A DNA stretch of 64,000 nt, from assembly GCA_030683005.1 (NCBI GenBank), contig JAUXMY010000015.1:1-64000 (forward strand), given 5' to 3'. The notes beneath the pieces were generated by a model. That model searched no databases. It was not told the origin of the DNA and worked only from the letters and a program-made list of their open reading frames with translations. Position numbers and translations under genes: made by a program. How positions within the stretch are numbered: position 1 is the first letter of the stretch; each line of letters starts with the position of its first letter. This stretch comes from Caulobacter sp. GTDB lineage: Bacteria > Pseudomonadota > Alphaproteobacteria > Caulobacterales > Caulobacteraceae. Positions 56,151 to 61,165 of this stretch are shown in pieces.

Positions 56151-58640
<2,490 letters not shown>

Positions 58641-58641
<1 letters not shown>

Positions 58642-58907
58642 TGGCCGACAAGCTCCACTTTTCGCTGGTCGCGCCGGAGCGTGAGGTCTTCTCGGGGGAG
58701 GTCGACCGTGTCGACGCCCCCGGCGCCGAGGGCGACTTCGGCGTGCTGGCCGGCCATGCGCCGTTCATGACCGCGCTTCGCGAGGGCGTGGTGACGGTCG
58801 TGAACGGTGCGCAGACCCGCGCCTTCGAGATCCACGGCGGCTTCGCCGACGTGAATGCCCAGGGCCTGACCATTCTGGCCGAACACGCGGTCGAAGCCTC
58901 GACCTGA
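58641..58907 (+). CDS. atpC: ATP synthase F1 subunit epsilon, short form
   Basis: 88 residues, only the N-terminal beta-barrel (LHFSLVAPEREVFSGEVDRV near 4-23; GAEGDFGVLAGHAPFMTAL near 29-47; AFEIHGGFADV near 64). The C-terminal two-helix domain that inhibits ATP hydrolysis in E. coli-type enzymes is absent, so regulation by epsilon is not expected; alphaproteobacteria have the zeta inhibitor protein, not seen here. Translation is coupled to atpD (TGATG). Confidence 0.95.
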
Positions 58908-58919
58908 CCTCATCCCGCC

Positions 58920-58934
58920 GTAAAGCCGCGTTAA
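58920..58934 (+). promoter_or_regulatory. CtrA-like box
   Basis: GTAA-N7-TTAA (58920-58934), seven of eight bases of the TTAA-N7-TTAA motif bound by CtrA in Caulobacterales, about 60 bases upstream of the next start. Such near-matches occur by chance. Confidence 0.3.
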
Positions 58935-58995
58935 GAACGACTTGCGAGGGAACACCGGGCGGTCTTTAGTGCCGGCCGATAGCTATAGGGATGTG

Positions 58996-59649
58996 ATGAA
59001 CATGCGTAGCCCCGCGCTTCTGGGTCTGACCGCCGCGGCGGTTGTCGCCACGACCGCTTTCGCCCAGGATACACAGACTCCTCCGGCTGGATGGGTTCCG
59101 GCCCCCGCGACCGAGGCCGCTCCAGCTGCGCCGCCGGCCGTGGAAGCGCCTCCGGTCGTCGAAGCCCCTCCCGCCCCGCCGCCGGTTCCCACCGACGTCA
59201 CCTCTCTGGCCGTGCTCGACGTTCTGACGCGCGTCTGCGCGCAGAGCGTTCGCGGCGGCGACATGAAGGCCCTGGCCACCGCGGCCGGCTTCAAGCTGCG
59301 CCGCGACCAGTGGGTCAAGCAATACGCCAAGGGCTACCAGATCTCGATCTCCCCTCCGGGAACCAACCCGCAGGTCTGCAGCGTGACGCTCGACCATCCG
59401 ATCGACGGCATCACCCCGGTGATCGTCGACGTTCACAACTGGGCGATGGGCAAGGGCTGGGACCTGTACCGCAACGACCAGATCCTCACCGACATGGATC
59501 GCACGACCCGTTCGTGGGAAATGCGCGGCGAGACCGAGCTTGAAGCGGTCGTCCTGGTGACGGTCCGCAAGCCCAATGGCGCGCCGTTCTCCAGGAACGC
59601 CGACCGGGCCGAGCTGCTCTACAGCCTCTACCCAGTCCCGGCCCTTTAG
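58996..59649 (+). CDS. Secreted hypothetical protein with Ala/Pro linker
   Basis: 217 residues. Signal peptide ([20 protein letters not shown], cleavage after AFAQ), a Pro/Ala/Val-rich linker to about 65, then a globular domain with two cysteines ([20 protein letters not shown] near 80 and [12 protein letters not shown] near 128) and [14 protein letters not shown] near 150. No family recognised; it resembles uncharacterised periplasmic proteins of Caulobacterales. It follows the atp operon by 88 bases. The stop is 10 bases before the riboswitch hairpin. Confidence 0.75.
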
Positions 59650-59658
59650 GGCCGGTCA

Positions 59659-59723
59659 CGCCGGCCGGGACGACCCGGCCGGCGCTCCTTTCCGACGGGG
59701 ACGACCCTGTCATAGCCACAGGG
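59659..59723 (+). promoter_or_regulatory. Guanidine-II (mini-ykkC) riboswitch
   Basis: Two hairpins each closed by an ACGA loop, the defining feature of this class. P1 is an 11-bp perfect stem (59659-59669 with 59674-59684, loop 59670-59673). P2 is a 7-bp stem with one G-U (59694-59700 with 59705-59711, loop 59701-59704). CCCTGT (59705-59710), part of P2, can instead pair perfectly with ACAGGG (59718-59723), which contains the AGGG Shine-Dalgarno 9 bases before the exporter ATG. Ligand-bound P2 would free the ribosome site. Confidence 0.88.
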
Positions 59724-59732
59724 CGTGTGGTC

Positions 59733-60065
59733 ATGGCCTGGATCATCCTCTTCGTCGCCGGCCTGTTCGAAGTCGGCTGGGCGGTGGGTCTCAAATACAC
59801 TGAAGGGTTCACGCGCCTGTGGCCAACGGTCGGCACGGGCGTCAGCCTGGTGTTGTCGATGGGGTTGCTCGGCTGGGCGCTGAAGAGCTTGCCGCTGGGC
59901 ACGGCCTACGCGGTCTGGACCGGCATCGGCGCCGTGGGTACGGCGCTGTTCGGCATACTGGTGCTCAAGGAGCCCGCGACGGCGGCGCGGCTGGTCTGCC
60001 TGTGTCTGATCGTGGCGGGCATCCTGGGACTGAAACTGTTCTCGCCGCCGGGTGTGTCCAGCTAG
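59733..60065 (+). CDS. gdx: Guanidinium exporter, SMR family (Gdx/SugE)
   Basis: 110 residues with four membrane helices. It begins [20 protein letters not shown] with the transport glutamate near 13, and continues [14 protein letters not shown] near 56-69 and [13 protein letters not shown] near 91, the pattern of the SugE/Gdx branch rather than EmrE-type multidrug pumps. Dual-topology inner-membrane dimers exchange guanidinium for protons. ATG 59733 is preferred over GTG 59727 since AGGG lies nine bases upstream. Preceded by a guanidine-II riboswitch. Its stop overlaps a convergent gene by four bases. Confidence 0.93.
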
Positions 60066-60316
60066 CGGATCGGCACCGGGGCGTCGGGGTCTGCGCGGGG
60101 AGGGCCGTCCGGAGCCAAGGCGTCGAGCACCTGCAGTCCGGCCGGGGTTATCACCCAGCCCTCGCGGTTGCGCAGCGCCAGCCCAAGCTCGGTCAGCGAC
60201 AGCGCGTCGGAAATCCGGATCCAGTCGACGTCCGCGCCGGCGTGTTTGCGTTCGAGATTGCGCAGCGCCTCAAGCTGGCCGGGCGAGAGCTTCAAGGCAG
60301 CCTCGTCAGGGGTCAT
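60062..60316 (-). CDS. Small hypothetical, winged-helix-like protein
   Basis: 84 residues ([20 protein letters not shown]). The central part ([32 protein letters not shown], described by position about 33-64) has the helix-helix-wing rhythm of small winged-helix domains. Tail is Pro/Asp-rich. The stop overlaps that of the guanidinium exporter by four bases (convergent). Alternative ATG at 60346 would add ten residues. Function unknown. Confidence 0.65.
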
Positions 60317-60415
60317 GGGCTCGGGGCCTCCACGCGCCGTGGCCACGCCGCCACCTTCCCGTTGCTGTAACAGAGGCTGGCAAACCCGTCCGATAAACTT
60401 GTCGGAACAGTGTGC

Positions 60416-61165
60416 CTAGGCAGCCGCCTGGTCGCGTCCGGCCAACCAGTCCAGGCAGAGGGCGGCCGTGCCGTCCCAGCCCGGCTCACCCGGGATCCAG
60501 TGGCTCATGGCCGGCAGGGTCTCGAACCGGGCGCCCAGCCGCTGGGCGGTCTGGCGGGCCGTGGCGGGCGGATGGATGACGTCCTTGCCCCCGGCCACGA
60601 CCAGCGCCGGCGCGGCGACGCGGCCGACCGAGGTGGTCATGAACGGGTCCAGCCACCAGTTCAGCGTCTGCCACAGCGCCAGGCCGCTCTCCGGCACCAT
60701 GCGGTCGAACACGCCACGCCGCTCCTCGCGGGTCATGCGGTCGAGGCTGAAGCGCTTGGCCAGCGCGTAGTCGGGATCAATGGCCTGCAGCCAGAAGGGG
60801 CCCAGGGCGTAGAGGCTCATCGCGCTGACCGCCTCCTCCATGCTGCTGCCGCTGACGCCCCAGGGCGGCGACGGCGCCAGCAGGATCAGCGAGTGCAGCG
60901 GCGCGCCGGCGGCGGCCAGCTGGGCGACCAGTCCGCCCATGGAATGGCCGATCAGGATCGGCGGTTCGGGCAGGGCCTTGCACAGGGCGGCGATGTCGCC
61001 GGCGTAGTCGCGCATGCCGACACCGGCCGTCGAACCGCCGGCCCCGTGGCCGCGCAGGTCAGGCGTCAGGACGACGTGACCGGCCGCTTCGAAAGGCTCA
61101 CGAAAGCGTTCGAAGACCCAGCCGCCACAGAAGGCGCCGTGCACCATAACGACGGGTGCTGGCAT
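60416..61165 (-). CDS. Alpha/beta hydrolase
   Basis: 249 residues. The oxyanion segment is VVMVHGAFCGGWVFER near 5-20, nucleophile elbow GHSMGGL near 73-79, acid after ALVVAGGKDVIHPPA near 191 and His in AMSHWIPGE near 219. General esterase/lipase/haloperoxidase family; substrate unknown. It is followed upstream by a second, longer alpha/beta hydrolase on the same strand, suggesting tandem paralogues. Confidence 0.9.
   Translation of the reverse strand: MPAPVVMVHGAFCGGWVFERFREPFEAAGHVVLTPDLRGHGAGGSTAGVGMRDYAGDIAALCKALPEPPILIGHSMGGLVAQLAAAGAPLHSLILLAPSPPWGVSGSSMEEAVSAMSLYALGPFWLQAIDPDYALAKRFSLDRMTREERRGVFDRMVPESGLALWQTLNWWLDPFMTTSVGRVAAPALVVAGGKDVIHPPATARQTAQRLGARFETLPAMSHWIPGEPGWDGTAALCLDWLAGRDQAAA

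Follow-up and report, generated by a model that had tools for sequence, protein, structure and literature searches.

A Guanidine-II riboswitch predicted to control a Gdx-type exporter gene in Caulobacter sp., with two candidate structures for its OFF state

The gene for a Gdx-type exporter in Caulobacter sp. is directly preceded by a Guanidine-II aptamer, and folding calculations together with published relatives make it very probable that this aptamer belongs to a functional riboswitch, which would turn on gdx translation when guanidinium accumulates. This places gdx of Caulobacter sp. under likely guanidine control. In the absence of guanidinium, the 3' half of the second aptamer hairpin (P2) would be recruited into base pairing that prevents initiation. 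Two bound guanidinium ions, together with a contact between the loops of P1 and P2, would then keep P2 closed and leave the start region accessible. As blocking structure we rank a hairpin around the start codon first, as a tentative preference, a helix between P2 and the Shine-Dalgarno (SD) region second, as a lesser but serious candidate, and a helix with the linker or 5' flank, or another structure, last. The 3' half of P2 is common to both leading candidates. The window analysed here is the whole stretch of 64,000 nucleotides (contig JAUXMY010000015.1, positions 1 to 64,000), and the features of the locus, including predicted structures, are as follows.

58990-59649, plus strand: preceding gene, 219 aa, 0 Pfam/NCBIfam matches, signal-peptide-like start by eye
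59659-59684, plus strand: P1 hairpin of the Guanidine-II aptamer, 11 bp, loop ACGA at 59670-59673
59685-59693, plus strand: P1-P2 linker, CTCCTTTCC, weakly complementary to the SD zone (-3.1 kcal/mol, p 0.26 against shuffles)
59694-59711, plus strand: P2 hairpin, 7 bp including one G-U, loop ACGA at 59701-59704
59701-59726, plus strand: candidate extended P2/SD OFF helix, 59705-59710 with 59718-59723 and 59701-59703 with 59724-59726, A59704 bulged, 9 bp
59709-59737, plus strand: candidate start-codon hairpin (P3), 59715-59719 with 59727-59731 and 59709-59713 with 59733-59737
59720-59723, plus strand: Shine-Dalgarno-like AGGG, 9 nt upstream of the ATG at 59733
59733-60065, plus strand: gdx, sugE-type SMR exporter, 110 aa, matching the SugE model and PF00893

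The match to RF01068 (Guanidine-II) extends from 59662 to 59709 on the plus strand, covers the full-length model and reaches 47.2 bits against a cut-off of 32 (E 3e-6 in the window). It is the sole Rfam match in the window at gathering threshold (cmscan). A sequence-only reading of this DNA had described two ACGA-loop hairpins after the preceding gene and assigned them to the guanidine-II class; the hairpins are exactly where it placed them, and the assignment held in the covariance-model search that it had suggested as a check. Both loops are intact, which gives the pair of ACGR hairpins characteristic of Guanidine-II, and P2 ends 21 nt before the ATG of gdx, a position directly before a guanidine-related gene that is likewise typical of the class. 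The stop codon of the preceding gene (TAG, 59647-59649) lies 9 bases upstream of P1. Folding of 59650-59750 was equalled or bettered by one of 200 shuffled sequences (z -3.2), and a sigma-70 scan of 58600-60500 returned no promoter. In the assembly (3.45 Mb, 43 contigs), no second Guanidine-II match was reported among the 150 of 1396 first-look candidates that were scored, Guanidine-I gave no match, and neither did Guanidine-III among 150 of 1111 candidates scored. By its sequence, the Guanidine-II RNA before gdx is an ordinary case of a known class with its usual gene.

The gdx product scored 143.6 bits against the SugE model NF008512 (cut-off 126) and 98.3 bits against PF00893 (SMR, cut-off 23.7). 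The best solved chain in a phmmer comparison was 6wk5_B with 112.9 bits, and EmrE chains reached at most 50.9 bits; we take 6wk5 to be Gdx-Clo, the database listing giving just the SMR family. The protein carries E13, W16, S42, Y59 and W62, the residues of the Gdx guanidinium site, whose roles in Gdx-Clo are described in the available part of PMC9574504. These results bear out the earlier assignment of the next gene as a SugE/Gdx-type exporter, and its product is predicted to be a guanidinium/H+ antiporter. A multidrug (Qac/EmrE) identity was considered and rejected, as the bit scores favour SugE/Gdx; that NCBIfam calls the model 'quaternary ammonium compound efflux SMR transporter SugE' is a matter of labelling and no evidence of drug export. 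An in-frame GTG at 59727, 3 nt past the SD, is an unlikely upstream start. The assembly holds one strong SMR gene, the second match reaching just 23.5 bits over a partial model. A single-sequence structure prediction of Gdx came out poor (mean pLDDT 58) and was left unused. A urea-carboxylase model gave 13 matches in the genome, none over the cut-off, and an amidohydrolase search of the genome was too general to bear on guanidine degradation.

The 219-aa gene, in which a proline/alanine-rich stretch was seen by eye, sits between atpC and gdx, and further upstream ATP synthase genes could be read from the translations. Two sister genomes, G111 and G187, have the identical order of atpD, atpC, 219-aa-like ORF, aptamer and gdx (names from translations; the G187 contig starts within atpD). 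On the minus strand, a small ORF without family match occupies 60062-60319 (85 aa from 60319, or 94 aa from a GTG at 60346) and shares four bases with the 3' end of gdx. It has counterparts at L166, again with a four-base overlap, and at L167, without overlap.

Within the genus, the aptamer was found in 40 of 75 genomes, and an SMR gene follows it at 39 of these 40 loci; loci were selected here for having an SMR start, so the figure stands for 39 loci that have one and for L131, where the aptamer precedes ChaA, as the exception. A sample of 149 genomes from the family yielded 24 with the aptamer, 22 of them over the cut-off. Both searches used filters, by which weak matches are lost. Close Gdx proteins (E below 1e-35) are encoded in 46 of the 75 genus genomes, 39 of which have the aptamer. 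Among the others, G172 keeps both ACGA hairpins around a long linker and scores 29.2 bits, G121 has kept the stems and lost both ACGR loops, G179 and G022 show a hairpin without an ACGR loop, G185 and G199 show no ACGR hairpin pair by eye, and the leader of G176 is unreadable. The nearest Gdx loci in named genomes are from Caulobacter sp. (95% and 86% identical), and 38 of the 80 nearest such loci have an aptamer over the cut-off (11, 6, 9 and 12 per 20). In the genus, the aptamer is steady where present, while the candidate translation-blocking part varies by group.

Some leaders deviate from this picture in form. Upstream of gdx in L028 and L137, which share the same leader and are perhaps one genome, both stems are kept and the loops read GCGA and CAGG; these letters give the impression of an aptamer in decay next to a gdx that is still intact. 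Upstream of gdx in L164 and L165 there is just one GC-rich hairpin, which lacks an ACGR loop. A short T run follows it, and the gene before it seems by eye to be the same preceding gene as in our locus; this hairpin is possibly an aptamer remnant or a state predating the aptamer. In many Caulobacter leaders, L002-L009 and similar ones, a TATCTA motif stands right before P1, and P1 together with the U-rich linker after it resembles an intrinsic terminator.

A locus entered the comparison of leaders if it had two ACGR hairpins, each with 4 bp or more, close to the start codon of an SMR gene. This was applied to 88 loci, of which 10 gave no leader and were dropped (L028, L036, L049, L050, L061, L065, L070, L073, L104 and L131). 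L027 was dropped as the same genome as L127, leaving 77 leaders: 39 from Caulobacter, our own included, 9 from other members of the family and 29 from other taxa.

When our leader was folded freely, short contexts favoured P2 and longer ones, from 59750 onward, the start-codon hairpin. P2 was favoured in contexts up to 59745, was overtaken by the start-codon hairpin at 59750 (0.35 vs 0.61) and lost beyond, in a folding model that contains no ligand, Mg2+ or loop-loop contact. When P1 and P2 were enforced, opening the whole stretch from SD to AUG cost less, by over 0.5 kcal/mol, in 26 of the 39 Caulobacter leaders and 24 of 38 other leaders, where 11.8 and 11.9 are expected with shuffled downstream sequence; it cost more, again by over 0.5 kcal/mol, in 4 of 39 and 3 of 38. 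Our own leader gained 4.0 kcal/mol, above 95% of its 20 shuffles, and, broken down by context, it gained 0.7-3.9 kcal/mol in the six longer ones and nothing in the two shortest. The unpaired probability of the SD was 0.32 with P1 and P2 enforced vs 0.76 in free folding for our leader, and 0.36 vs 0.80 and 0.78 vs 0.83 for the sisters. Whole extended stems were enforced for SD accessibility, and the inner four pairs when the enforcement was repeated for the opening calculation. For the Guanidine-II RNA of P. aeruginosa, the available text of PMC9561414 reports guanidine-dependent ribosome loading. The predicted ON direction is supported by the whole-site opening calculation and by such published relatives, and not by SD accessibility.

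The leading, if tentative, candidate for the OFF state is the start-codon hairpin at 59709-59737, which holds the SD in its loop and the AUG in its stem (the pair 59720-59726 is optional), and from which guanidine would free the AUG rather than the SD. Bases 59709-59711 are used both in this hairpin and in the closure of P2. For this reason the full P2 and the full start-codon hairpin are mutually exclusive, and guanidine could release the start codon. The hairpin is the predicted ligand-free fold of our leader and of both sister leaders. It costs 0.1-0.3 kcal/mol in six of the seven contexts that include it, but 2.1 kcal/mol when the context ends at 59745. Compared with the two sisters, differences occur in 7 of 14 comparisons of loop positions and in 2 of 28 outside the loop (Fisher p 0.003, in a test that counts related sites as independent), and the two changes outside the loop break no pair, one affecting an unpaired base and the other turning G-U into A-U. 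This pattern is suggestive but no proof: three related genomes with one compatible one-sided change do not amount to covariation, and the 3' arm is partly coding or start-adjacent, which could itself account for its conservation. The SD also remains in the loop of the start-codon hairpin and, once P2 has formed, a hairpin at 59719-59740 can still pair both SD and AUG, as it does in the contexts ending at 59740 and 59745. On account of this second hairpin we lowered our confidence that the start-codon hairpin is the OFF form. It also lowered somewhat the probability, which we put well below even, that the modelled arrangement, with the AUG in the stem, the SD in the loop, a base shared with P2 and an AUG freed by guanidine, represents a new expression platform of this subclade. 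By title and abstract, no start-codon hairpin is described in the Guanidine-II class, a scope that leaves out a 2017 validation paper and a 2023 tuning paper.

The second candidate OFF state, to which we assign a lower probability, would lay the 3' strand of P2 and part of its ACGA loop on the SD (59701-59710 with 59718-59726). The sequence-only reading had pointed to this pairing, and 59705-59710 (CCCUGU) is indeed perfectly complementary to 59718-59723 (ACAGGG), six pairs that extend to 9 bp with one bulge. It had also held that the on and off forms could be read directly from the pairing, which is doubtful: the pairing itself is real and reaches the ligand loop, but it is unconserved in the two sisters, is not the preferred ligand-free fold and has a competitor in the start-codon hairpin. 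By itself, the 6-bp complementarity is weakly significant, as 4% of 400 SD-zone shuffles reach six Watson-Crick pairs with the P2 3' strand. With just these forms compared and nothing else allowed, P1 plus the 9-bp P2/SD helix is level with P1 plus P2 (-39.1 vs -38.8 kcal/mol), and in the context 59659-59760 the helix is cheaper than enforcing P1 and P2 (3.6 vs 4.7 kcal/mol). Over eight folding contexts, however, it costs 2.7-5.0 kcal/mol relative to the free ensemble, and its probability, scored for the 6-bp form, is at most 0.013. The duplex between P2 loop plus 3' strand and the SD reaches -13.4 kcal/mol in our leader (shuffle p 0.025), but in the sisters it does not stand out from shuffles (p 0.37 and 0.455). 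At least six uninterrupted Watson-Crick pairs between P2 and SD occur in 2 of the 77 leaders (L001 and L035), and the sister genomes have three each.

Complementarity of the P2 3' strand to the SD is a collective signal over the 77 leaders that is lost in the two sister genomes. P2 loop plus 3' strand paired with the SD/start zone more strongly than shuffled sequences did, at a mean z of -0.94 in the 39 Caulobacter, -0.61 in the 9 family and -1.49 in the 29 other leaders. The effect was weaker for the linker (-0.45, -0.36 and -0.29) and for the 5' flank (-0.30, +0.04 and -0.15), and a P2 5'-strand control gave -0.10, +0.12 and -0.52. These z-scores are means over related sequences and not independent tests, and single leaders reach p <=0.05 for P2 loop plus 3' strand in 6 of 39, 1 of 9 and 11 of 29 cases. 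In the available parts of the literature, an overlapping P2/RBS stem loop is proposed for Gloeobacter (PMC5486947), and a 20-bp deletion in E. coli, placed by the authors over the P2 loop, makes gdx constitutive (PMC13064478), which fits a P2 that holds the blocking strand. Our modelling leaves the P2/SD mechanism as one of two plausible forms, and in this subclade conservation and computed energy do not make it the better supported one.

It is improbable that the anti-SD lies in the linker or the 5' flank, as a P0-like helix of the kind modelled for P. aeruginosa and E. coli. According to the available text, mutations in the P0 helix break switch ON in P. aeruginosa (PMC9561414), and a linker model has been put forward for E. 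coli (PMC9300104). In our leader, though, the linker/SD duplex amounts to just -3.1 kcal/mol (p 0.26), and p <=0.05 is reached for the linker in 2 of 39, 0 of 9 and 2 of 29 leaders and for the 5' flank in 4 of 39, 0 of 9 and 2 of 29. Finally, it is very improbable that the hairpins serve merely to end transcription of the preceding gene, with gdx expressed on its own. The length and GC pairing of P1, and the U-rich sequence downstream of P1 in many relatives within Caulobacter, would fit such a role, but it leaves the intact ACGA loops of both hairpins and the 47-bit match to the aptamer model unexplained. A terminator scan found none at P1 here, and the terminator reading of P1 was rejected.

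A Guanidine-II aptamer was also seen before an antiporter gene. In Caulobacter G153, a match of 38.0 bits, over the cut-off, lies at L168:4004-4051 on the minus strand, between the gene for ATP synthase subunit A and an antiporter gene, whose product scores 179 and 178 bits against the CaCA2 and ChaA models, below the curated cut-offs. An Aminobacter plasmid protein that is 70% identical to this antiporter is annotated as calcium:proton antiporter. Two of three Aminobacter plasmid records were fetched, and both have two ACGA hairpins before the antiporter gene (L210 and L211:2395-2440, plus strand), scoring 29.6 bits, below the cut-off (E 0.019). Two less similar plasmid antiporter loci gave no Guanidine-II match, and the same held at E 1 for 17 more distant chromosomal ChaA loci in Infernal. 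A bulge-free scan near ChaA genes found 0 of 30 (control 23 of 24) and 0 of 17, but it also misses the two Aminobacter loci found by Infernal, so these zeros carry little weight; the Infernal recheck covered 17 of the 47 loci scanned in this way. In the literature, as far as the available text reaches, a guanidine riboswitch and ChaA come together just in PMC13064478, where ChaA is a gene absent from the assay strain. From these sequences, the ChaA/CaCA-type protein is a possible new type of guanidine-controlled exporter.

Among known systems, the gdx product is closest to the Gdx-Clo/SugE exporters, with a gap-free alignment to 6wk5_B over residues 1-103, the same site residues and no notable difference. 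No paper on a guanidine riboswitch in Caulobacter was found by title or start of abstract. The aptamer resembles RF01068 in its two ACGA hairpins, short linker, full-length match and place directly before gdx; the consensus stems have 8 and 5 bp, and P1 and P2 have 11 and 7 bp here. A further difference to that family possibly lies in the start-codon hairpin as expression platform. With the P. aeruginosa P0 and E. coli gdx leaders, as far as the available texts describe them, our leader shares the translational ON switch before an SMR gene, which is predicted here. In those species the anti-SD has been placed in the linker (E. coli, PMC9300104) or in 5' flank and linker (P. aeruginosa, PMC9561414), whereas the linker here has little complementarity. 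The Guanidine-II RNA of Gloeobacter violaceus, in the available part of PMC5486947, has a P2 that overlaps a possible RBS stem loop, the same idea as the P2/SD helix, although that helix is unconserved between the sister genomes here. The location of the blocking strand is the point on which the published models of three species disagree, and the comparison of 77 leaders turns it into a testable statement, namely that the blocking strand tends to lie in the loop and 3' strand of P2.
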